DNA from: Leifsonia psychrotolerans
Lineage (GTDB): Bacteria; Actinomycetota; Actinomycetes; Actinomycetales; Microbacteriaceae
NCBI RefSeq assembly: GCF_013410665.1
Contig: NZ_JACCFM010000001.1
Span: 186,001-250,000, forward strand
DNA: 64,000 nucleotides
Direction: 5' to 3'
Positions 1,882 through 15,071 of the stretch are shown here, piece after piece (the stretch's first letter is position 1; each line of letters begins with the position of its first letter). Below the pieces are notes generated by a model. That model did no database searches. It saw only the letters and a list, made by a program, of their open reading frames with translations, and was not told where the DNA came from. A program made the translations under genes and the position numbers.

Positions 1882-2733
1882 ATGAATCGGGCCGACGCGC
1901 ACATCCATCTCTTCGAGTATGGCTTTTCGGGAACGCGCGAAGCCGGTGCCGAGCTGGCCGACTACGAACAGATCCGCACCCGGTATTCGATCGAGCATGC
2001 CCTTGTGATCGGCGTCGAGGGTGAGCCGCGATTCGCGGGCAACAATGACTACATCTTGGCGCTGGCGCGTAGGCATGACTGGATCGCGCCGCTGCTCTTT
2101 CTCGACCCGGCGGAGCCGCTTCTGCCCGCGCAGGTCGCGGACGCACTCGAGGCCGGGGCCGCCGGATTCTCGCTTGAGCTGGGGGCCGATGGCGAGGCCG
2201 TGAACGCCTTCGATTCTGACGTCTGGCGGGTGCTCGATGAGGCGAATGCGCTGCTGAGCCTCAACGTCACCCCGGCCGGAATCGCGGGAGTGCGTGAGGT
2301 TATTCGGGGACGCCGGGGCGGGGCCACGCTCCTCAGTCACCTGGGGCTGCCGGGTCCCGCTGCTGACCCTGCTGCTGATCCTGCTGCGGGCACCTCTCCT
2401 GGAGCTGCTGAGGGCCACTCGGATGAGTGGGTGGCTCGTGCGGCAGCCGTGCGTGACCTCGCCGATTGCCCGAGTGTGTTGGTCAAACTGTCCGGACTCT
2501 ACGCCATCGATCCGGTTTTCCCGCACTCTCGAGCGCAGGACGAGACCCTTCACGTGCTCTCGGAGTTTGGTGCCGAGCGGATGCTGTGGGGTTCCGACTT
2601 CGCGCCGGGCCTCGGCGCTCTCGCCGCCGAGCAGCTCTTCGACGTGCCCGACTGGTTTGTGCGGGCGGTGTCGGCGACCGAGCTTGAGCAGGTCATGCGC
2701 GGCACGCTGGCTCGGCTGCTTGCCTCCCGTTGA
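1882..2733 (+). CDS. amidohydrolase family 2 (TIM-barrel metal-dependent hydrolase)
   Basis: The protein starts with the metal-binding HxH motif (DAHIHLF, His7 and His9 from ATG 1882). It continues with LSHLGLPG, carrying a further likely ligand His, and ends with WGSDFAPGL (Asp239). This is the amidohydrolase 2 (COG3618) order seen in lactonases and decarboxylases. The frame extends upstream to ATG 1765, overlapping the SDR, or ATG 1804, but those 26-39 residues resemble no family sequence. ATG 1882 is chosen because homology begins there, although no clear Shine-Dalgarno precedes it. An Ala/Asp/Pro-rich stretch (PAADPAADPAAG) near nucleotide 2365 looks like a small insertion after the His motif. 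It is probably in one operon with the SDR and ROK genes. Confidence 0.85.
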   Translation: MNRADAHIHLFEYGFSGTREAGAELADYEQIRTRYSIEHALVIGVEGEPRFAGNNDYILALARRHDWIAPLLFLDPAEPLLPAQVADALEAGAAGFSLELGADGEAVNAFDSDVWRVLDEANALLSLNVTPAGIAGVREVIRGRRGGATLLSHLGLPGPAADPAADPAAGTSPGAAEGHSDEWVARAAAVRDLADCPSVLVKLSGLYAIDPVFPHSRAQDETLHVLSEFGAERMLWGSDFAPGLGALAAEQLFDVPDWFVRAVSATELEQVMRGTLARLLASR

Positions 2734-3530
2734 TCGTCCTACTCCGCTGACCGTCCCCACCCCGCTGATCGCCCCGTCGTGCACCCCGTCGTGCACCCCG
2801 CCGTGCACCCCGCCGTGCACTCCGCCGTTGATCGAGCCCGTCGAGATCCCCCTCCCGACCGTGCACCCGTCCGTTGATCGAGCCCACCCCGCAGATCCAG
2901 CCCACGCCGCTGATCGAGCCTGTCGAGATCCCGCGAGCCACCCTCGAGAACCGTGGCCGCGGTCTCGACAAGCTCGACCGACGGTTCAATAACCGGTCCC
3001 GCGCCCCTTCCGCAGATCCAGCCCACCCCGCAGATCCAGCCCGCACCGCTGATCGAACCCATTCCGTTGATCGAGCCCATTCCGTTGATCGAGCCCACTC
3101 CGTTGATCGAGCTCGTCGAGATCCCGTGAGCCACCCTCGAGTCCGTACCCTTCCGTTGATCGAGCTCGTCGAGATCCCGCGAGCCGCCCTCGAGACGGGG
3201 GAGCGTGGTCTCGACAAGCTCGACCCACGGTTCGGCAATCGACCCCTCGCCCCTCCGCAGATCCAGCCCACGCCGTTGATCGAGCTCGTCGAGATCCCGT
3301 AAGCCACCCTCGAGACCGTAGACCGTGGTCTCGACAAGCTCGACCCACGGTTCGGCAATCGACCCCTCGCCCCTCCGCAGATCCAGCCCACGCCGTTGAT
3401 CGAGCTCGTCGAGATCCCGTGAGCCACTCCCGAAACCGAGGAACGAGGTCTCGACAAGCTCGACCCACGGTTCGGCGCTCGAGCCCGCACCCCTTCCGCT
3501 GATCGAGCGTGTCGAGATCCTGCGCGCCAC
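2734..3530. repeat. palindromic repeat array 1 (REP-like), intergenic
   Basis: This gap holds no convincing gene. It has about seven copies of an arm resembling TTGATCGAGCnnGTCGAGATC (near 2828, 2910, 3102, 3155, 3273, 3393 and 3500) and four copies of the opposing arm GGTCTCGACAAGCTCGACC (near 2960, 3207, 3327 and 3447), so many pairs can form hairpins. Sub-repeats are also present: four 12-bp units at 2772-2819 and three 18-bp units at 3061-3114. From 3181 the array is an almost exact tandem repeat of period 120 bp: 3241-3300 and 3361-3420 are identical. The same repeat family occurs at 48076-48503 and 54938-55400. Confidence 0.9.
3181..3480. repeat. 120-bp tandem repeat within array 1
   Basis: Segments 3181-3300, 3301-3420 and 3421-3480 align without gaps. 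The second halves of the first two units (3241-3300 and 3361-3420) are identical over 60 bases, and the first halves differ at a few positions. Each unit holds one reverse arm (GGTCTCGACAAGCTCGACC) and one forward arm (TTGATCGAGCTCGTCGAGAT), so the palindromic element itself is the tandemly amplified unit. Such close copies suggest recent duplication by slippage or unequal exchange. Confidence 0.9.
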
Positions 3531-3610: not shown

Positions 3611-3652
3611 TATACTGAGAAAAGCTCGTAATCATGTTCGTTCTTTGGGAGA
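3611..3652 (+). promoter_or_regulatory. probable promoter -10 and RBS of the DUF222/HNH gene
   Basis: TATACT at 3611-3616 is a good -10 hexamer. No convincing -35 was found at standard spacing. The Shine-Dalgarno GGGAGA at 3647-3652 sits 8 nt before ATG 3661, which favours that ATG over the in-frame ATG 3634. Confidence 0.5.
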
Positions 3653-3660
3653 ATAGAGCT

Positions 3661-5370
3661 ATGTCAATCACCCTCCCACCCCCCGTCTCCGCCCCGGAGC
3701 CGACGCCCGCCCCGGGTGCGTCGGCACCGACCGCGGCCATGGTGCTGGCGGTGCTCGAGCAGACGCAGGCGCTGTGGGCGGGGCTCGGAACGGTCAGCCC
3801 CGACCGGTTCACCGATGACGACCTACTCGGTGTGCTCGGTGCGTTCGAAGGTGTGGGCCGGCTGGTTGATGCGGGACGGGTGGCTGTGGCGGCGACGGTC
3901 GAGGAACGCTCCGGCCGGTGGCTGGGCCGGGACTCCCTCGCAGCGAAGCGGGGCTGCACCAGTGGCGTCGACCTGATCACCCGGGTCACCCGCATCTCCG
4001 GCCGGGAAGCGAAACGCCGCAGCGCCCTCGGTTTGCGAATGCGGGACACGCAGCACGTCGGAACGATCATCCCCGCCCTGTTCCCCACGGTCGGTGCCGC
4101 GGTCGCTTCGGGCTTGCTGGGGGTGGATGCGGCGGAGGTGATCATGTCCGGTCTGGCGGAGATCTCCCCGCGTGTCGCCCCCGATGATCTTGCGGCTGCG
4201 GAACGCGCTCTGGTGTCTGCGGCGACGGGCACGATTACGGCCGAGAATGAGGGTGAGCCGGGCGCGGGCTTTGCGTTCTCGGCGGACTCGATGCGGGTGC
4301 AGCTGTTGCAGTGGCAGGCGGCGCTGGACCCCGACGGGGTGGCGCCGAACGAGGTCGAGGGTGAGGCGACGAGCACGATCAGTTTCGGCCGCTTCAAAGA
4401 CGGAATCTATCCGGTGCGGGGTGGTGTGACTCCTGATCTGTACGGAATCATGAACCTCACCTTCGACGCCTTCATCGCCGCCCGCAAAACCCCCGCGTTC
4501 CCGACCGCCGCCGAACAAGCCCGCGATGAGGCACGCGACGACCGTTCCGAGCACGACGACCGTTCCGAGCACGACGACCGCGCCGAGCACGACGACCGCT
4601 CCGAGCAGGATTCTCACGACGGTCCCGACGGACACGACTTGGACGACGAGCGCGACCGCGAGCACGACGACCGTGACCACGAACGCGATGACCACGACCA
4701 CGACCATGACGACCACGGTCAGGGTTCAGCCTCGGCCGAGGCGCCTCTTCCCGGGTCGGCCGGGCACGAGTTCGATGATGTCGACACCCGTACGGCCGGT
4801 GAGAAGCGGGCCGATATTCTGCGCGGCATGTTCACCCAGTTGGCTCAGGCCGATAACACTCCCAGCATTGGTGGTGCACCGCCGACGGTGGTGGTGCATG
4901 TGAACGTGAACGATATTGAAGCCGGTCGCGGTGTCGGCTGGATCGATGGTGTCGACGCCCCCATTTCGCTTCGCACGGTGGATCAGATGATGTGTGCCGG
5001 AGGCACCCAAACGGTTCTGTTCGGTCCGAACGGTGAGGTTCTCACCCTGACCGATCCGCAACGACTGTTCAACCGTGCCCAACGCCGGGCGATCCTCGCC
5101 CGCGACGGCGGCTGCGGCGTTCCCGGCTGCGACGCCCCCACACAGTGGCTCGAATTTCATCACGTGATCCCCTGGAGCAAAGGCGGCGTCACTGAGGTCG
5201 ACAATGGTGTGGCGTTGTGTTGGCGGCATCATCACACCATCGAAACGTCCGGCTGGGAGATCATGATGGTCAACGGCCGCCCCCAGGTCAAAGCCCCGGC
5301 CTGGATCGACCCGAGCCGCACCTGGCGCGACGCCAACCGCCACCGCACCGACACCCACCGCCGCGACTGA
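3661..5370 (+). CDS. DUF222 domain-containing HNH endonuclease-like protein (13E12 repeat family)
   Basis: This 569-aa protein has an N-terminal DUF222/13E12 domain (about residues 20-280), an acidic His/Arg-rich low-complexity linker (about residues 290-370) and a C-terminal HNH nuclease domain. HNH residues visible are Cys485 and Cys490, the His500-His501 pair (FHHVIPWSKGG), Asn515, Cys520 and His523-525, so the active and zinc-binding sites look intact. The family is typically present in many copies in actinobacterial genomes and its function is not settled. The linker includes a DDRSEH hexapeptide encoded by an 18-bp tandem repeat. The gene stands alone between two repeat-rich intergenic regions, which may be meaningful. 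ATG 3661 is chosen on Shine-Dalgarno spacing; ATG 3634 would add nine residues. Confidence 0.9.
   Translation: MSITLPPPVSAPEPTPAPGASAPTAAMVLAVLEQTQALWAGLGTVSPDRFTDDDLLGVLGAFEGVGRLVDAGRVAVAATVEERSGRWLGRDSLAAKRGCTSGVDLITRVTRISGREAKRRSALGLRMRDTQHVGTIIPALFPTVGAAVASGLLGVDAAEVIMSGLAEISPRVAPDDLAAAERALVSAATGTITAENEGEPGAGFAFSADSMRVQLLQWQAALDPDGVAPNEVEGEATSTISFGRFKDGIYPVRGGVTPDLYGIMNLTFDAFIAARKTPAFPTAAEQARDEARDDRSEHDDRSEHDDRAEHDDRSEQDSHDGPDGHDLDDERDREHDDRDHERDDHDHDHDDHGQGSASAEAPLPGSAGHEFDDVDTRTAGEKRADILRGMFTQLAQADNTPSIGGAPPTVVVHVNVNDIEAGRGVGWIDGVDAPISLRTVDQMMCAGGTQTVLFGPNGEVLTLTDPQRLFNRAQRRAILARDGGCGVPGCDAPTQWLEFHHVIPWSKGGVTEVDNGVALCWRHHHTIETSGWEIMMVNGRPQVKAPAWIDPSRTWRDANRHRTDTHRRD
4537..4608 (+). repeat. 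18-bp minisatellite inside the HNH gene (4 copies)
   Basis: Four tandem 18-bp units beginning GACGACCGTTCCGAGCAC encode (DDRSEH)n in the acidic linker. The copies differ at one to three positions. The linker remains Asp/Glu/His/Arg-rich to about 4730 with degenerate versions of the same unit. Confidence 0.9.
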
Positions 5371-6901: not shown

Positions 6902-7186
6902 CTAACGGGTGAGGAGGCCCCCTCGTTCGGGATGCGAGTCAAACCACTCGCCGACATACCAGCACATCGGTACGATGCGGAATTCGGTCGTCGCCTCGAT
7001 ATCGTTCACTGCGAACTCGACCAGGTCGCCGGCAAAACCCCGTCCCCGAAAGCTGGGCACCGTGAATGTGCGCGGAAGTGAAATTGACTGATTCACAATT
7101 GTGTAATCAACAACGCAGGCCAGCGCTCCATCGATGAGTAGTGTGTAGCGGCGGGCATCCGGTTCGTGTGCGAAAACGTGAGCCAT
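6902..7186 (-). CDS. GNAT-like N-acetyltransferase (COG2388 type)
   Basis: A small protein of 94 aa with the layout of the short Gcn5-like COG2388 family: a beta-rich N-terminus with YTLLIDG, then the acetyl-CoA loop TVPSFRGRGFAGDLV (Q/R-x-x-G-x-G/A-like), and a C-terminal VPMCWYVGEWFDSHPE strand-helix similar to the family consensus. It probably acetylates a small molecule or protein amine, and the substrate is unknown. It converges on the TM2 gene and is divergent from the nuclease/helicase gene. Confidence 0.82.
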   Translation of the reverse strand: MAHVFAHEPDARRYTLLIDGALACVVDYTIVNQSISLPRTFTVPSFRGRGFAGDLVEFAVNDIEATTEFRIVPMCWYVGEWFDSHPERGGLLTR

Positions 7187-7381
7187 ACGGCAATGCTAGC
7201 CAGCCAGGCTTGACACCGGCAGAGTGTCGGGCGATGACCTCCACCACGCAACATGGCCGGGGCCGGCGGTGCTCGGAGGGGAACCGCCACGAGTGCGAAG
7301 CGGTGCGAACGGACCCGGGCGAACAGCTCCGTTGTCGGGGGTCGCCGTTACGCTCGAGGCAAGCGCAACGAGAGGGCGTAC
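7187..7381. other. divergent intergenic region upstream of the nuclease/helicase gene
   Basis: These 195 bp separate the GNAT gene (minus) and the nuclease-helicase gene (plus). The region is open in the frame of the downstream gene, but the translation looks non-coding. AGAGGG at 7371-7376 is the likely ribosome binding site for ATG 7382. No clear promoter pair was identified. Confidence 0.5.
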
Positions 7382-10300
7382 ATGTTTGTACTCGACGGCA
7401 GCATCATCACCAGTGCGAGCGATCTGACTGCCGCTTCAACGTGTGAGTTCGCCTTTCTGCGCCGACTCGACACCAAGCTGGGGCGCCGTGCGGCCTCGAT
7501 CGAACCCGAGGATGCCATGCTCGAGCGCACCGCCAGGCTGGGGGATGCCCACGAGCTACGCGTGCTCGAGAGTTATCGTCAGAAGTTTGGCCCGAAGCAG
7601 TCCGGCGCAGGTGTTGTCGAAATTGCTCGGCCCACGCGCATGGACCGTGAGTCCATCGAGGCTGTGGCCGACGACACCGTGCGGGCGTTCGCCAGCGGTG
7701 CTGATCTGGTCTTTCAGGCCACCTTTTTCGACGAGAGCTTCATTGGCTTCGCCGACTTCATCCTGCGGCAGTCCGACGGCAGCTATCTGATTCAAGATAC
7801 CAAGCTTGCGCGACGGGCCACGGTGACGGCGCTGCTGCAGCTCGCTGCCTATGCCGAGCAGCTGGAGCGCATCGGAGTGAGGCCCGCAGCCACCGCTGAA
7901 TTGTTGCTCGGCGACGGATCGGTGAGTGTGCACCGGCTTTCCGACATCGCACCGGTTTACCGCGCTCGGCGTGCACGCCTGCTGCAGATGATCGACGAGC
8001 GGATCGCCGCCGACGAGCCAGTCTCCTGGGGCGACACGCGGTACAGCGTCTGCGGCCGGTGTGTGAGCTGCGAGGCAGAGGTGCAATCCCACCGCGACCT
8101 GCTTCTGGTGGCAGGCATGCGCGTCACCCAGCGAGCGCGGTTCGCAGCCGCGGGAATCCACACGATCGATGAGCTCGCGGCATCCGATTCGGGGGTGTCG
8201 GGCCAATCGGTCGAGGGCATCGCCGAGAACACCCTCACGACGTTGCGGAACCAAGCCCAGCTGCAGGTGGGCGCGATTCCCGGTGAGCCGCCGCCCGTAC
8301 AGGTGTGCAACCCGGCGGCACTCGCCGTGCTGCCCACGCCGAACCCGGGTGACATCTTCTTCGATTTTGAGGGCGACCCGCTGTACACCGAGGGCACGGC
8401 CGAGCATTGGGGGCTCGACTACCTCTTCGGTCTTGTCGAGACGGATGGCAGTTTTCGCGCGTTCTGGGCGCACACTTTCGCCGAAGAACGGCAGGCTTTG
8501 CGTGACTTTCTCGACTATCTGGCGAAGCGACGTGCCGAGTTTCCCGGAATGCACATTTACCATTACGCGGCCTACGAACGCACGCACCTGCTGAGCATTG
8601 CGGCTCGGCACGGGGTCGGTGAGCATGAGATCGACCAGTTACTGCGCAGCAATGCCCTCGTCGATCTCTACCCGCTGGTTCGTAAAGCACTGCGGGTGGG
8701 GTCGCGTTCCTATTCGATCAAGAAGCTCGAGCCGCTTTACATGGGTACCGAGCTGCGCACCGGTGAGGTGACCAACGCGGCTGCCTCGATCACCGAATAC
8801 GCCGATGCGCGGGAGCTGTATCTGGCCGGCGAGACGACCGAGGCTCAGCGCATGCTCGACTCGATTGCCGACTACAACCGTTACGACTGCGTCTCCACGC
8901 TGCGACTGCGCGACTGGCTGCGTGAGCAGGCCCGAGCGAGCGGCGTGCCCATCGGGCTCACCGGCGTGGTCGACGAAATGGGGGAGTTGCCCGAATCCCC
9001 CCTCCGTGACGCGTTGTTGGCTCGTGCCGGAGATCCGCTTCACCCCGACCGCACGGCAGACCAGACGGCGGCGGCGTTCGCGGCGGCCGCCCTGGACTAC
9101 CACCAACGCGAACACAAGAGCTTCTGGTGGGGGCATTTTGCCCGGCTCGAGCAGCCGATCGATGAATGGGAAGACACCCGCGACGTACTGCGCATCGACG
9201 AGGTCCGTGTCGAGACCGACTGGTTTCGTGAGGGGCGGCAGCGCACCGACCGCCGGCACCTCTGGCTGCGCGGTCGGCTCGCCCCGGGCAGCAGCATCAA
9301 ACCGGGTGACTCTGCCGGACCCTATCTGCTCTACGAATACCCGGGCCCGTACCCCGATCCGAAGGCCGCGCCCGGCGCGCGCAGTGCGCGCACGGTCACG
9401 GTGCTCGAGGTTGCTGATGACGGGGCCATCCTGATCGAAGAGACGCTGCCCAAAGACGTCGACCCCCACAGCCAGCGGCCATCGGCACTCGCGCCGAGCG
9501 CACCACCACCGGCCGGGCAGCAGAAGCCGGCAATCGAAGAGTGGGCCGAGGCGATCATCGACGCCCAGCCGGAGTGGCCGGCGGAGCCGATGGTCGACAT
9601 CCTGCGTCGCGTCGCACCGCGCACTCGATCGGGTGCATTGGCCGCCATTTCGGCTTCTCCCGAGGGTGACGAGCGCATCAAGGCCGTGATCAGTAGCCTG
9701 CTCGACCTCGATGCGTCATACCTTGCAGTGCAGGGTCCTCCTGGTACCGGCAAAAGCTACCTGGGAGCCCACGTGATCACGACGCTCGTCCGCGAGCATG
9801 GCTGGAAGATCGGAGTTGTTGCACAGTCACACGCCGTGGTCGAGAATCTGCTCGCCGCGGTGGTCAAAGCCGGTCTCGACCGTGACCTGGTGGGAAAGGT
9901 CGCCAAGTCAGGCGGATCGAAGGCCGGTTCCGACGATGAGGAGACGGCCGAAATCCCGTATACGGCACTCCTGGCCAACGGGCAGCTACTGTTTGCGCTT
10001 GACCACGCCGACACCGGTTTCGTGGTCGGTGGCACTGCCTGGGACTTCAGTAATCCGGCGCGGGTGCCGCGGCACAGCCTCGACCTACTCGTCGTCGATG
10101 AGGCCGGCCAATTCTCCCTGGCCTCCACGATTGCGGCCAGCGTCGCTGCAACGAACCTGCTGCTGCTCGGCGACCCGCAGCAACTGCCTCAGGTGAGCCA
10201 GGGCACGCATCCCGAGCCGATCGATCAGTCGGCACTGGGCTGGGTGAGTGCCGGTCACGATGTGCTTCCGGCTTCGCTGGGATATTTCCTGGCCGAGAGC

Positions 10301-10897
10301 CGTCGGATGCACCCGGCGGTGACGGCACCGGTATCTCGCTTGTCGTATGAGGGTGAGCTGCACTCGCATGAGTCTGCATCGACGCGCCACCTCGACGGAG
10401 TCACGCCGGGCCTGCATATCGTTCCAGTGCACCACGTCGGAAATGCTGTGGAATCGGTTGAAGAGGCAGCACAGGTGGTATCGCTGGTTGAATCGCTGCT
10501 CGGTACGCGCTGGAGCGACCCGACCGACCACCGCCTCGACGATGTGCTCGACGAAGGCGACCTCATCGTCGTCACGCCGTACAACGCGCAGCTGAACACG
10601 GTGAAAGACGCACTGGCAACGGCCGGCTTTGTTCGGGTGCGTGTCGGTACCGTCGACAAATTCCAAGGCCAAGAGGCCGCCATCGCGATGGTGACGCTCG
10701 CCGCCTCGTCGGCCGATGATGTGCCACGCGGACTCGGCTTCCTCATCATGAAGAACCGGTTGAACGTGGCCATTTCCCGGGCCAAGTGGGCGGCCTACCT
10801 GGTCTACTCGCCGGGGTTGGCCGAGAGCCTGCCGGTCACTCCGGCCGGAGTCGCCGAGCTGAGTGCGTTCATTACGCTGGTCGAGTCAGGGGTGTAA
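7382..10897 (+). CDS. TM0106-type RecB-like nuclease fused to superfamily 1 (DNA2/NAM7-like) helicase
   Basis: A large 1171-aa fusion. The N-terminal part is a PD-(D/E)xK RecB-like nuclease of the TM0106 family, with GFADFIL...YLIQDTKLARR and a Cys cluster CGRCVSCEAE. A predicted RNase H-like segment follows (DIFFDFEGDPLY ... YHYAAYERTHL). The C-terminal half is an SF1 helicase with Walker A GPPGTGKS (Lys791), Walker B VVDEAGQ (Asp906-Glu907), LLLGDPQQLPQ and late motifs VDKFQGQE and NVAISRAK. The architecture suggests unwinding and degradation of DNA or RNA in repair or defence. ATG 7382, preceded by AGAGGG, is preferred over an upstream in-frame ATG at 7253. A DarT-like gene follows on the same strand after 148 bp. 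Confidence 0.92.
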   Translation: MFVLDGSIITSASDLTAASTCEFAFLRRLDTKLGRRAASIEPEDAMLERTARLGDAHELRVLESYRQKFGPKQSGAGVVEIARPTRMDRESIEAVADDTVRAFASGADLVFQATFFDESFIGFADFILRQSDGSYLIQDTKLARRATVTALLQLAAYAEQLERIGVRPAATAELLLGDGSVSVHRLSDIAPVYRARRARLLQMIDERIAADEPVSWGDTRYSVCGRCVSCEAEVQSHRDLLLVAGMRVTQRARFAAAGIHTIDELAASDSGVSGQSVEGIAENTLTTLRNQAQLQVGAIPGEPPPVQVCNPAALAVLPTPNPGDIFFDFEGDPLYTEGTAEHWGLDYLFGLVETDGSFRAFWAHTFAEERQALRDFLDYLAKRRAEFPGMHIYHYAAYERTHLLSIAARHGVGEHEIDQLLRSNALVDLYPLVRKALRVGSRSYSIKKLEPLYMGTELRTGEVTNAAASITEYADARELYLAGETTEAQRMLDSIADYNRYDCVSTLRLRDWLREQARASGVPIGLTGVVDEMGELPESPLRDALLARAGDPLHPDRTADQTAAAFAAAALDYHQREHKSFWWGHFARLEQPIDEWEDTRDVLRIDEVRVETDWFREGRQRTDRRHLWLRGRLAPGSSIKPGDSAGPYLLYEYPGPYPDPKAAPGARSARTVTVLEVADDGAILIEETLPKDVDPHSQRPSALAPSAPPPAGQQKPAIEEWAEAIIDAQPEWPAEPMVDILRRVAPRTRSGALAAISASPEGDERIKAVISSLLDLDASYLAVQGPPGTGKSYLGAHVITTLVREHGWKIGVVAQSHAVVENLLAAVVKAGLDRDLVGKVAKSGGSKAGSDDEETAEIPYTALLANGQLLFALDHADTGFVVGGTAWDFSNPARVPRHSLDLLVVDEAGQFSLASTIAASVAATNLLLLGDPQQLPQVSQGTHPEPIDQSALGWVSAGHDVLPASLGYFLAESRRMHPAVTAPVSRLSYEGELHSHESASTRHLDGVTPGLHIVPVHHVGNAVESVEEAAQVVSLVESLLGTRWSDPTDHRLDDVLDEGDLIVVTPYNAQLNTVKDALATAGFVRVRVGTVDKFQGQEAAIAMVTLAASSADDVPRGLGFLIMKNRLNVAISRAKWAAYLVYSPGLAESLPVTPAGVAELSAFITLVESGV

Positions 10898-11045
10898 AAG
10901 TCACAGATTCCTGTAAATCGTCGTGAATTCGAGGGGATCTGACCCCCAACGGTATCTGGGTGTCGCGAAACCCGCGTAACGTTAACAGGTGGTTTTCAAA
11001 TCTTGATCTTCGAGGTAACGGGCTCCACATCAGAAAGGCATTACC
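10898..11045. other. spacer upstream of the DarT-like gene
   Basis: This 148-bp gap is noticeably more AT-rich than its flanks (for example GTAACGTTAACAGGTGG near 10975). It probably carries the promoter of the DarT-like gene. The 19 bases before the TTG start at 11046 include AGAAAGG at 11033-11039, a usable ribosome binding site. Confidence 0.45.
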
Positions 11046-11933
11046 TTGAGCGACGAATGTATCCACGGACTGGCTGACCGAGAGTGCGCCAGCTGCTTCC
11101 CCCAAGCCGTTCCTGAGGTCGCGCGTGTGGTGTCGAACCCATCTCAGCGTGCCAGCAAGGCACGCGAGCGCGTTGCACCGACGACTCTCCGCACGGCCCC
11201 GGTCGCGCCCAAGACTTCGGCTGGCGCAAAGGCTGCGGCCCCGGTGCGGTCCGCTGCAGTCAAAGTCGGTGACCAGCGCATCTACCACGTCACCCATATC
11301 AAGAACCTGGCCGACATCCTGGTCAGCGGCGCAGTCAATGCCATGCAGGGCGCTACGGCCACGACTCCCGTCGTCGACATCTCGTCCGAGGGCAATCGCG
11401 CATGGCGTGCTTCTACCCACATTGCCGGTGACGACAGTGCCAGCGTCGCCGATTACGTACCCTTCTTCCTCTCCCCAGACGCGAGCGTGTGGGAGAGCAT
11501 CCGTTCGGGCGCCATCGACCCGCGGCTGACGACCACCGCAACGGATGCCGCAGCTGCGGACTTCGTGATTCTGGTGAGCGCCGTCAAGAACGCCACGGCG
11601 CTTCACCCGGGCGATGTCCCGGAAGACGATACGGCCATCGTCGTGACCGACGCGGACGCAGCCCTGGAACGCACCCGTTTCGGCGCAACACGCGACGGTG
11701 CCGAGCGTCTGTTGCACACCGTGCGTTCGAACCCCGCAAGCGGAGCCATTCTCGAGGCAGAATTCCTCGTGCACGGCACGTTCCCGTTTGATCAGATCAT
11801 GCTCATCGGCGTGGCAAACGACCGGGTGCGCGATACCGTCAAGGGAATTCTCAAGCCCTCCGGCTTTCGCACGAAGGTCGCCGTGTACCCGCCGTGGTTC
11901 CTGCCGAGCGACGACGACTCACTCGACGGATAG
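11046..11933 (+). CDS. DarT-like (DUF4433) ADP-ribosyltransferase with N-terminal CxH...CxxC motif, no adjacent DarG
   Basis: Residues 80-260 of this 295-aa protein match the DarT/DUF4433 pattern: YHVTHIKNLADILVSG (80 onward), an Arg-rich region NRAWRAS, DYVPFFLSP (136 onward) and EAEFLVHG (Glu237/Glu239), where the DarT catalytic Glu lies. DarT enzymes ADP-ribosylate thymidine in single-stranded DNA using NAD+. An extra 75-residue N-terminus has Cys5-x-His7...Cys14-x-x-Cys17, a possible zinc knuckle, and a low-complexity Ala/Pro linker. TTG 11046 has AGAAAGG upstream, and the Cys motif needs this start. No DarG macrodomain gene is next to it: downstream is a convergent SNF2 helicase whose stop abuts this one. 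The toxin may be self-limited, inactive or paired with an unlinked antitoxin. Confidence 0.78.
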   Translation: MSDECIHGLADRECASCFPQAVPEVARVVSNPSQRASKARERVAPTTLRTAPVAPKTSAGAKAAAPVRSAAVKVGDQRIYHVTHIKNLADILVSGAVNAMQGATATTPVVDISSEGNRAWRASTHIAGDDSASVADYVPFFLSPDASVWESIRSGAIDPRLTTTATDAAAADFVILVSAVKNATALHPGDVPEDDTAIVVTDADAALERTRFGATRDGAERLLHTVRSNPASGAILEAEFLVHGTFPFDQIMLIGVANDRVRDTVKGILKPSGFRTKVAVYPPWFLPSDDDSLDG

Positions 11934-14900
11934 CTACGCGTCGAGGAGCCCACGAATATCGTCGGCCGTGAGCGCCGGGCTGAACACGTCGTCGTCGTCG
12001 ATGACCGCCGTGAACAGCTTGGCTTTCTTGGCCTTCAGCGCCATCACTTTCTCTTCGATGGTGCCCGCTGCGACCATACGGTAGACCATCACGTTCTTGG
12101 TCTGGCCGATGCGGTGCGTTCGGTCGATGGCCTGCGCTTCACTCGCCGGATTCCACCACGGGTCGAGCATGAACACGTAATCGGCCTCGGTGAGATTCAA
12201 ACCGAAGCCGCCGGCCTTCAGACTGATCAGAAAGACCGGAGCCTGGCCGGATTTGAATCGATCGATGACCTCCGAGCGCCGCAGAGTCGAGCCGTCAAGA
12301 TAGCAATAGGGTGTGCCGAGCGCATCAAGCCGGGCCGCAGCCTTCTTCAAAAATGAGGTGAACTGGCTGAAGACAAGTGCTCGATGCCCCTCGGCCAGCA
12401 CATCTTCGAGCTGTTCAAAGAGGGCGTCGAGTTTGCTCGAGGGCACCGTGGCATACGTGTCGTCGACCAGTGACGCGTCGAGGCTGAGCATGCGCAGCAG
12501 CGTGAGCGACCGAAAGACAATGAACCGGTTTGTGTCGAGATCCTCGAGCAGTCCGAGCAACTTCTGCCGTTCACGCTGCAAAAAAGTGTCGTAGAGCTTC
12601 TGATGCCGCGGGTTCAGCTCGATCTCGAGCGTTTGCTCTTGCTTGGCCGGCAGATCGCTGGCCACGAGCTCTTTGGTGCGACGCAGCAGAAACGGCCGGA
12701 TGCGACGGCGCAGCTTCGTGAGCCGGCCCGGGTTGGTGCCGAGCTCGATCTGGCGCACATAGTCCTCGGTGAATTTACGGGCGGATGGGAACAGCCCCGG
12801 TGCGACGACGGCAAACAATGCCCGCAGCTCCAACAGGTTGTTCTCCATCGGAGTTCCAGTGATGGCCAGTTTGAACGGGGTGTCGAGATCGACGGCGCAG
12901 GCGTGAGCCCGGCTTCCCGCGTTCTTCACAAACTGGGCCTCGTCGAGAATCAGGCCGGCCCAGGGGAGGGCCTGATAACTCTCGAAATTGAGCCGAAACA
13001 GCGTGTACGAGGTGACAATGACGTCGACCGGGCCGCGCGTTCCATCCGGTGCCGCTTCGAGGGCATCCGCAAGCGCCGTTCCCCGAGCCGAACTCGTGGC
13101 GGTGACCGAACGCACAACGAGGTCGGGAGCGAATTTACCGGCCTCTGACACCCAGTTCGAGACGACCGAGGTGGGGGCGACAACCAGGAAGGGAGCCCGC
13201 GCATCCGTCTGCTTCACGTGCAGCATGAGGGTGAGGGCTTGGAGGGTCTTGCCCAGGCCCATGTCATCAGCCAGGATGCCGCCCAGACGGTTGCGCCAGA
13301 GGAAGGCCAGCCAGCTGAAGCCGTCGGCCTGATACGGGCGCAGTTCGGCACGGAGACCCGCGGGCAGGGGAGTGGGCTCGATGCTCGCGAGGTCATTCAG
13401 CCCGGTCACGGTGCGGCGCCATGAGAGCGCTTGCTCGGTCTCGTCGGCCAGATCTTCGAAGTCGGCCCAGAGAGCGGCCTGGTGGTGGCTGATGCGCAGC
13501 CCGGTCTCCCATTCCTGCAGTGATTTGGCCTCGTCGATGAGTTCGCGCAGCTGTTCGAACTCGGGGCGCAGAAGCGAAAGATAGGAGTTGTCGACGAGAA
13601 GCAGTTTCTTGCGACCCTTCGCCAACGCGGCAAAGAGCGGGCCGAACGGAACGCTGCGCCCTGCAACGGTGACTAGCACGCCGAGATCGAACCAGTCACG
13701 CTGCTCAGATTCGACCGTCGTGAACTTCAGAGTGGGTGCGTCGTCAAGCTCGTGGTAGTCGGGTCGCTCTCCCACGATCTCGATGCGCACGCCTGGCAGC
13801 CGTTCGATCTCGCCGAGAAGGTGTGCGCTGAACTCGGCGGCGTCGATGCCCTGCAGCACGATGCTGGATTTCAGCGGTGCGAACTCGGCGGGCAGCGTCT
13901 GCTCGACGGCGTCGAGGCCGGCCTGCTCGGTCTCGGGATCGCGGCTGTCCCGCTCAGTGCGCTCGGCGGCGGGGGCCGACACGTTCGCGGAGGCATAGAG
14001 CGGTCGCCGGGGCTGCGCACTGCCGGGGTACTCCCACTCCCAGGCGAGGTGCAACGTTTGCTTCGGTCGGTAGCTGGCCACAAGCACCAGCGTGGGCCGT
14101 GGAGTCTCGGGGAAGTGCACCGAGGAATCTGAGCTGGTGACGGTGAGCACCCGATTGAGCGTGGGGTAAAAGCCGGTCATGAACTCCGGCACATCGTGTG
14201 CGGGCACAAGGACGGTGGCGCTCTGGCCGAGAAGGGCACGTTGCTCGGGGGTGAGCGCCGCGGGGGAGGGCGCGAGGGTGAACACCGTGCCGGCGGCGAA
14301 CGAATAACTGTAGATACCGTGATCCCCGATGGCTCCGGCGAATTCGGAGGAGAACGGGCTGCCATCGATGGTCAGCGCGGTGCGCAGACGCAGGCCCGCC
14401 ACTGACGCATATGGTGTCGGCGTGGCCTGGGGCGCGGCATCCGTCGTGGCGTCCGGGGCGGCATCCGTCGTGGCGTCCAAACTGAGCCGCGCTTCGGCCC
14501 CGACGACAATGACGGAGTCCTTCGCCGACCCGACGAGGGGAATGCCGAGGCGCTCGGCCTCGTGCAGCAACTGCCACAGCAGCGGACTCGTGAACTCGTC
14601 GAGGTAGAGCCAGTCGGTCTCCTGCCCGTAATACAGCGTACGCACGGCCCGATGCAGCGCCACAAATTGGCTGAACCACTCGTGATGCTGCCGTGCCAGG
14701 TTCAGTCGGGTGCCCTGATGGCTGAGGTTGGTCCAGGTCAAAGCGCCCTTCACCCAGTTGCCGGTGCGACCACGCATGACCGGGCGCACCCCGAGCCGAA
14801 AACGAGGTGACCCGGATTCAGGGTTGATGACGGTGCGCGCCGACGGTCCGCTCCAGCGTTCCAGCGTGCGTGGCATCTGCTCTCGCAGCTCAAATTGCAG

Positions 14901-15071
14901 AGCCATTGGAACCGCGTTCCCGGGGAGGGCGGCGCTCGCCGTGGCCGCCTCAGCCACACGCGCATAGCCGAAGCCAGCGGATGCCGTCGCCACGTGGGTC
15001 AGCGAGTCGACGGCCCGTTTCCAGGCGGGTTCGCCGTGGCCCGCACCTGCGGCCGCTTCGTCTGTCGACAT
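11934..15071 (-). CDS. SNF2/HepA family DEAD/DEAH-box helicase
   Basis: A 1045-aa protein whose C-terminal ~480 residues are a complete Snf2 motor: Walker A ADDMGLGKT (Lys608), LDEAQFVKN, ITGTPMENN, and motif VI AIDRTHRIGQT. The N-terminal half is a divergent accessory region with no recognised domain, typical of bacterial HepA/YqhH-like helicases. Such proteins are dsDNA translocases that remodel protein-DNA complexes and recur in repair and defence loci. A 24-bp in-frame duplication gives DATTDAAP twice near residues 197-212. The stop codon directly abuts that of the convergent DarT-like gene, with no space for a terminator. The start ATG 15071 is divergent from yghZ. Confidence 0.93.
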   Translation of the reverse strand: MSTDEAAAGAGHGEPAWKRAVDSLTHVATASAGFGYARVAEAATASAALPGNAVPMALQFELREQMPRTLERWSGPSARTVINPESGSPRFRLGVRPVMRGRTGNWVKGALTWTNLSHQGTRLNLARQHHEWFSQFVALHRAVRTLYYGQETDWLYLDEFTSPLLWQLLHEAERLGIPLVGSAKDSVIVVGAEARLSLDATTDAAPDATTDAAPQATPTPYASVAGLRLRTALTIDGSPFSSEFAGAIGDHGIYSYSFAAGTVFTLAPSPAALTPEQRALLGQSATVLVPAHDVPEFMTGFYPTLNRVLTVTSSDSSVHFPETPRPTLVLVASYRPKQTLHLAWEWEYPGSAQPRRPLYASANVSAPAAERTERDSRDPETEQAGLDAVEQTLPAEFAPLKSSIVLQGIDAAEFSAHLLGEIERLPGVRIEIVGERPDYHELDDAPTLKFTTVESEQRDWFDLGVLVTVAGRSVPFGPLFAALAKGRKKLLLVDNSYLSLLRPEFEQLRELIDEAKSLQEWETGLRISHHQAALWADFEDLADETEQALSWRRTVTGLNDLASIEPTPLPAGLRAELRPYQADGFSWLAFLWRNRLGGILADDMGLGKTLQALTLMLHVKQTDARAPFLVVAPTSVVSNWVSEAGKFAPDLVVRSVTATSSARGTALADALEAAPDGTRGPVDVIVTSYTLFRLNFESYQALPWAGLILDEAQFVKNAGSRAHACAVDLDTPFKLAITGTPMENNLLELRALFAVVAPGLFPSARKFTEDYVRQIELGTNPGRLTKLRRRIRPFLLRRTKELVASDLPAKQEQTLEIELNPRHQKLYDTFLQRERQKLLGLLEDLDTNRFIVFRSLTLLRMLSLDASLVDDTYATVPSSKLDALFEQLEDVLAEGHRALVFSQFTSFLKKAAARLDALGTPYCYLDGSTLRRSEVIDRFKSGQAPVFLISLKAGGFGLNLTEADYVFMLDPWWNPASEAQAIDRTHRIGQTKNVMVYRMVAAGTIEEKVMALKAKKAKLFTAVIDDDDVFSPALTADDIRGLLDA
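14434..14481 (-). repeat. 24-bp in-frame duplication in the SNF2 gene
   Basis: Two tandem 24-bp units beginning GCGGCATCCGTCGTGGCGTC (plus strand) differ only in the last three bases. They encode two copies of the octapeptide DATTDAAP in a non-conserved linker of the N-terminal half. Confidence 0.85.

Follow-up and report, generated by a model that had tools for sequence, protein, structure and literature searches.

A DarT-fold ADP-ribosyltransferase gene of Leifsonia psychrotolerans with an N-terminal Cys/His module and no antitoxin gene beside it

DarT is described as a toxin that is restrained by a dedicated eraser encoded beside it. The DNA analysed here, a stretch of 64,000 nucleotides from Leifsonia psychrotolerans (contig NZ_JACCFM010000001.1, positions 186,001 to 250,000; hereafter the window), contains an open reading frame (ORF) for a DarT-like enzyme that has no such neighbour, which raises the question of how this enzyme is restrained and what it is used for. 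The explanation that best accounts for the evidence, and to which roughly even chances are given, is a stand-alone ADP-ribosyltransferase (ART) of the DarT fold that founds a subfamily, limited to the Microbacteriaceae in the searches made, and that likely serves the conditional marking of nucleic acid rather than addiction. The enzyme probably represents a new branch of the DarT enzymes that is under a different control.

The DarT-like protein and its N-terminal module

The ORF product matches the Pfam DarT family PF14487 over residues 80-285 (70.8 bits against a gathering cut-off of 22.5, E 1.7e-19) and Thermus DarT in the PDB, and comparison of residues 72-286, that is without the N-terminal module, with DarT structures places it in the DarT fold. 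The three landmarks on which a sequence-only reading had called the gene DarT-like (YHVTHIKNL, DYVPFFLSP, and EAEFLVHG) are all found in the product, and the call stands. Against the NCBIfam equivalog toxin_DarT (NF048013) the score is 80.8 bits, which is below the threshold of 150. A sequence of the ribosome-binding type, GAAAGG, is present at 11033-11038, ahead of the TTG start. A search of 150 Microbacteriaceae genomes found DarT genes in 76, with no internal stop in any DarT match listed, and residues were counted in an alignment of 76 rows, made up of the window protein and one relative from each of the other 75 carrier genomes (Table 1).

Table 1. Positions of the gene, its features, and its neighbours in the window
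Feature	Position	Strand	Evidence and conservation
RecB-like nuclease/helicase (TM0106-family nuclease fused to superfamily 1 helicase)	7253-10897	+	Profile matches
CGTAACGTTAA, conserved upstream element with -10-like TANNNT hexamer	10975..10985	+	Core search of upstream regions
DarT-fold ADP-ribosyltransferase ORF, 295 aa, TTG start	11046..11933, stop included	+	ORF list, Pfam, PDB match, model, fold comparison
Module E4-C5-x-H7-G8-x5-C14-x2-C17-x-P19, putative zinc knuckle	11055..11102	+	Invariant in 76/76 rows
Basic linker rich in Ala, Pro, Ser, Lys, Arg, residues 20-77	11103..11276	+	Composition, charge, model
DarT (PF14487) catalytic domain, residues 78-286	11277..11903	+	Pfam, profile-profile alignment, fold comparison
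Arg121, column of Thermus DarT catalytic Arg51	11406..11408	+	R in 74/76
Trp149, adjoining the Thermus Met78 site (Val148 here)	11490..11492	+	W in 76/76, invariant
Asp204, base-recognition site (His119 in DarT2, Asn104 in DarT1)	11655..11657	+	D in 68/76; TDADAA vs TDRNAA ungapped in profile alignment
Glu239, catalytic ART glutamate	11760..11762	+	E in 76/76; column of Thermus DarT Glu160
SNF2 helicase, convergent	11934-15071	-	Profile matches; last base adjoins last base of DarT-like ORF

Ahead of the catalytic domain there is a Cys/His module followed by a linker. This extension, which had been noticed from the sequence, is real and marks the subfamily: every one of the 75 relatives fetched as DNA has C5-x-H7-x6-C14-x2-C17, as has each of the 80 named loci that are the best 80 of 182 relatives, 64 of these 80 being non-identical to all 76 rows over the compared stretch. 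Because the mean column identity of the subfamily is 35% (71-row alignment), the invariance of the module is strong and beyond chance. The spacing of the ligands points to a putative zinc knuckle. In the predicted model the confidence score (pLDDT) is 81 over residues 1-10 and 89 over residues 11-20. The module alone (residues 1-28) gave no sequence match in the PDB, a result that says little for so short a query.

Among the matches listed, 105 of 120 homologous proteins carry the module and the other 15 begin after or inside it. One of the 15, P0001, is the window protein itself, which has 268 residues there as against 295, and that gene call therefore begins 27 residues late. We infer that late start calls also explain the other 14; a late annotated gene start can conceal the module that defines the subfamily. 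Among the 76 members, the nearest in-frame start ahead of the module is GTG 38 times, TTG 26 times, and ATG 11 times, and in one member no such start was found.

A pattern located the end of the linker in 66 of the 76 members, and in these it is 37-61 residues long with a net charge of +3 to +9, in contrast to the last 215 residues, where the net charge is -14 to 0. The predicted model falls to a pLDDT of 52-55 over linker residues 31-60. Motif searches of the linker found one pattern in 24 of 76 members, compared with 7.4 in shuffles, that pattern having been suggested by sequences already seen, and a second with no excess (24 against 25.1 in shuffles of the 76 members); no inference is drawn from either.

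Arg51 and Glu160 are required in Thermus DarT, whose catalytic site is depicted with His65, Tyr71, Met78, and His119 in addition (PMC9967889). Two glutamates, 237 and 239, had been proposed for the window protein, and it is Glu239 that aligns with Glu160, a residue replaced by Ala in the mutant chain whose structure was solved. The catalytic Glu is also kept in all of the 80 named loci, and the NAD-site Arg aligns as well, as Arg121. The NAD-site motif HxTHxxN is retained, with His81 in 75, Thr83 in 74, His84 in 75, and Asn87 in 73 of the 76 rows. That the gene is a DarT remnant, in decay or devoid of catalysis, would agree with its fast divergence and with the replacements described below, but is made highly improbable by this invariant Glu, the retained motif, the invariant module, and the lack of internal stops among the matches listed.

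The base pocket is changed. Where DarT2 has His119 and DarT1 has Asn104, the subfamily mostly has Asp (Asp204 in the window protein), and Met78 (DarT2) or Met71 (DarT1), for which a role in stabilisation of the oxocarbenium ion is proposed, is replaced by Val148 in the window protein (V in 24, L in 17, R in 16, and M in 3 of the 76 rows). The site of Thermus His65 is mostly Ala in the same alignment. Profile-profile alignment with 11 other actinobacterial DarTs, every one of them beside a macrodomain, gave a probability of 99.8 (E 4e-28) and the same ungapped register at these sites. In DarT1, alanine at Arg52, Met71, Asn104, or Glu152 abolishes activity (PMC11543638); since the Asn and Met sites are replaced, two of these four essential residues are changed in the subfamily. 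Judged from the sequence, the core chemistry looks to have been kept and the choice of target altered. The same replacements, beside a retained Arg and Glu, would be seen if the substrate itself had changed, with RNA, protein, or a small molecule taking the place of DNA as the target of the enzyme. This is regarded as unlikely, but it is one of the two main rivals, the other being the role in defence that is considered with the neighbouring genes.

The search for an antitoxin

The absence of a neighbouring DarG, claimed from the sequence, is borne out: there is no DarG partner beside the gene in its own genome, and none of the 76 carriers has a macrodomain on the contig of the DarT gene at a distance of 29 kb or less, although a few of the DarT genes are near a contig end. 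A phylum-wide search of 396 genomes found DarT matches in 21, with 18 outside the Microbacteriaceae, and for 14 of these 18 a macrodomain is present on the same strand at 0.4 kb or less, compared with 0 of 76 family carriers (Fisher p 1.8e-13). Of the other four, that in G301 is at a contig end, that in G178 is a partial match without a macrodomain, and those in G394 and G410 are weak matches. A Cys/His motif of the module type is not present in any of the 17 outside ORFs recovered by the family profile, at least four of which (L189, L196, L202, and L203) are cut short or partial; that profile did not recover the 18th (L206). The weak DarT-domain genes L205 (G410) and L206 (G394), at 64-66 bits, have no adjacent macrodomain, and L205 does not have the module; these are possibly further solitary DarT lines.

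The own genome is a single contig of 3.82 Mb, 99.99% complete, with one DarT match. Profile searches found no macrodomain (PF01661) in it, and NADAR is absent from all 150 Microbacteriaceae genomes, this one included. A gene for an eraser of another class, an ADP-ribosylglycohydrolase (ARH family, PF03747; L031), is present, unlinked, at G000:C1:2985667-2986596. Among the 150 genomes, 44 have a macrodomain and 54 an ARH gene, the latter in 30 of 76 carriers and 24 of 74 non-carriers, which is no association with the DarT-like gene (Fisher p 0.40). A macrodomain is present somewhere in 31 of the 76 carriers and absent from 45, and 24 have no match to macrodomain, NADAR, or ARH. Where the DarT gene and a macrodomain are on one contig (13 carriers), the nearest distance is 29.8 kb; in the remaining macrodomain carriers they are on different contigs, and the view is limited in G022, G054, G072, G114, and G147, where the DarT gene is near a contig end. 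As a control of sensitivity, the same macrodomain profile found the adjacent macrodomain in 14 non-family genomes, the weakest at 27 bits, although more divergent ones could escape it. On these searches, and with ARH unassociated, an unlinked DarG, NADAR, or ARH antitoxin is not supported.

It might still be supposed that this is an ordinary DarTG toxin with its antitoxin elsewhere in the genome. The free-standing macrodomain SCO6735 of Streptomyces, itself an actinobacterial protein, removes ADP-ribose from thymidine (PMC9411070), macrodomains are present in more of the carriers than expected, and the own genome does have its unlinked ARH-family gene. Indeed, there may be an unlinked eraser in the 31 carriers that hold a macrodomain of whatever class. 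For the own complete genome, however, the known antitoxin classes are contradicted, and with no macrodomain in 45 carriers, no NADAR in any genome, no association of ARH, and 24 carriers without any of the three, the supposition is scarcely credible.

Distribution, neighbouring genes, and the upstream element

The gene is patchily present in the Microbacteriaceae, and an order-level search with the window protein found 10 carriers among 297 genomes, all of them in this family. The 182 relatives came from a scan of genome contigs; the best 80 are named Cryobacterium, Agromyces, Leifsonia, Glaciihabitans, Frigoribacterium, Microbacteriaceae bacterium, or the like, the named genera being members of the Microbacteriaceae, and two are labelled Actinomycetota alone. 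With Thermus DarT as the root, a FastTree tree divides the subfamily from 12 other DarTs at a support of 0.83 (stem 1.1). Of the 30 genera with at least two members, 19 are monophyletic; descent is largely vertical, with 11 genera as exceptions. No report of a solitary DarT subfamily was found in the library of papers searched for DarT/DUF4433.

The genes on either side are those that had been claimed, a nuclease/helicase 5' and a convergent SNF2 helicase 3'. With the SNF2 gene abutting and a gap of 148 bases to the upstream gene, there is little room here for a co-transcribed partner. Neighbours of the kinds seen in the window are found near relatives at varying distances, SNF2 at 14 of 75 loci (two at 26-27% identity), GNAT-like at 12, and RecB-like at 7. 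Clustering of the flanks, which answers the call for a survey of the homologues' neighbours, revealed no recurrent adjacent gene, with at most 8 of 75 loci sharing any one family within 1.5 kb. Out to 5 kb, the largest clusters, which occur on both sides of the gene, comprise 18 of 74 loci and include shadow frames, as stop-to-stop frames in GC-rich DNA were used. A conserved partner gene is rejected, the neighbours recurring partially and the flank clusters being small. In the 12 relatives, counterparts of the small GNAT-like ORF of the window (by eye, 6902-7186) are no more than about 9 kb from the DarT-like gene and share no common position. A minus-strand open frame of 300 residues at 10872-11774 is antisense to the DarT-like gene, and there are antisense frames at relatives too; it is probably a by-product of GC-rich codon use.

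The helicase neighbours bear upon the second main rival, that of an antitoxin-free phage-defence effector which is self-inhibited by its N-terminal module or linker and which an infection signal would switch on to modify phage or host nucleic acid. DarTG protects against phages (PMC11543638), and the patchy presence of the gene and its fast divergence relative to neighbouring genes agree with such a role. Among PADLOC models, DpdE matches the SNF2 neighbour at 664 bits and MkoA the RecB-like neighbour at 140 bits; these are taken as helicase-family matches, though they could favour the defence role, and with the NCBIfam DpdE model the SNF2 protein scores 47.8 bits against a cut-off of 500. Against such a role, SNF2 and RecB-like genes are near few of the relatives, no other neighbour recurs, and the promoter-like element is conserved. 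Viral contigs gave a single match of 25%, which supports neither this role nor a phage origin. On balance a defence effector is doubtful.

In the last 200 bases of the 76 upstream regions, the core of the upstream element, CGTAACGT, has an exact copy in 24, compared with 0.15 expected in shuffles, and a copy with no more than one mismatch in 40, compared with 4.75 expected in mononucleotide shuffles, the core having been selected after viewing eight of the tested upstream sequences. The element is read as a conserved promoter. SOS-type boxes are not conserved, a LexA-like palindrome being present in 2 and a RecA-NDp pattern in 0 of the 76 upstream regions.

Elsewhere in the window, a 120-base tandem repeat is present in three copies (90% matches) at 3153-3508, with shorter arrays of 12-54 bases beside it at 2726-3112. 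It is immediately 5' of an HNH-endonuclease-like ORF (by eye, 3634-5370) that is interrupted by an Asp/His/Arg-rich low-complexity stretch of 18-21 base repeats.

Possible action and comparison with known systems

The sequence-only reading thus holds for the DarT-like enzyme, the absence of a DarG neighbour, and the Cys/His extension, but not for an unlinked antitoxin of known kind in the own genome; its two further options, control through a zinc knuckle and a non-toxic role, may apply. Asp204, the changed Met site, the restriction to the Microbacteriaceae in what was searched, and the upstream element are new beyond it.

A stand-alone enzyme would be a lone ART of the DarT fold expressed from its own promoter, in which the putative zinc-binding module and the basic linker would bring the catalytic domain to nucleic acid, or gate its activity, so that targeting or a trigger, and no antitoxin, would keep that activity within bounds. 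In the base pocket, Asp204 may direct the enzyme away from thymidine, perhaps toward guanine or another base that bears an exocyclic amino group, and the adducts, if formed on DNA, would be left to general repair. The likely use would be conditional marking of nucleic acid during stress or infection. DarT-made ADP-ribosylation occurs at the replication origin in mycobacteria and influences transcription (PMC12170906); these marks are a precedent for physiological use, but DarG is present there.

Several points weigh against this explanation. Macrodomains are commoner in carriers than in non-carriers (odds ratio 3.2, p 0.002), and full independence of the DarT gene and the macrodomain is therefore not favoured, although reduced-size genomes without both genes may inflate the association. 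Replacement of two of the four DarT1-essential residues could have left the enzyme with little or no activity on DNA. The invariance of a motif does not prove that it binds metal. Finally, the protein is 49-50% identical to those of two same-genus genomes, compared with 70-72% for SNF2 and 81-83% for AKR, and such fast divergence agrees with conflict or weak constraint no less than with housekeeping use.

The fact that half of the sampled Microbacteriaceae genomes keep a DarT-fold enzyme with its core catalytic residues intact and no eraser as neighbour makes it possible to test now for a free-standing, physiological ADP-ribosylation mark made by a DarT fold on DNA or another target. How a DarT-fold enzyme is restrained without an antitoxin can also be tested.

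Compared with DarT2 of DarTG (Thermus sp. 2.9 DarT, PDB 7omv; M. tuberculosis DarT, 7yk3), the window enzyme has no DarG partner, adds the Cys/His module and the basic linker at its N-terminus, and has Asp for the base-recognising His119 and Val for Met78 beside the invariant Trp. Compared with DarT1 of DarT-NADAR (E. coli C7, PDB 8baq), its family is without NADAR, it has Asp for Asn104, and the DarT1 fold is the more distant of the two. In PARPs with N-terminal zinc fingers a PARP-like catalytic domain comes after a Cys/His module and a linker, as it does in the window enzyme, where the module is 13 residues from first to last ligand and any binding of zinc or DNA is putative; this is an analogy and no family claim is made. 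It is a tentative and rather unlikely extension of the analogy that the enzyme would be a bacterial counterpart of these PARPs, an antitoxin-free DarT that would sense a nucleic-acid structure, or settle on it, through its tiny zinc knuckle and basic linker and would mark a non-thymidine base, guanine being the first candidate through an exocyclic amino group read by Asp204, as a signal and not as a poison.
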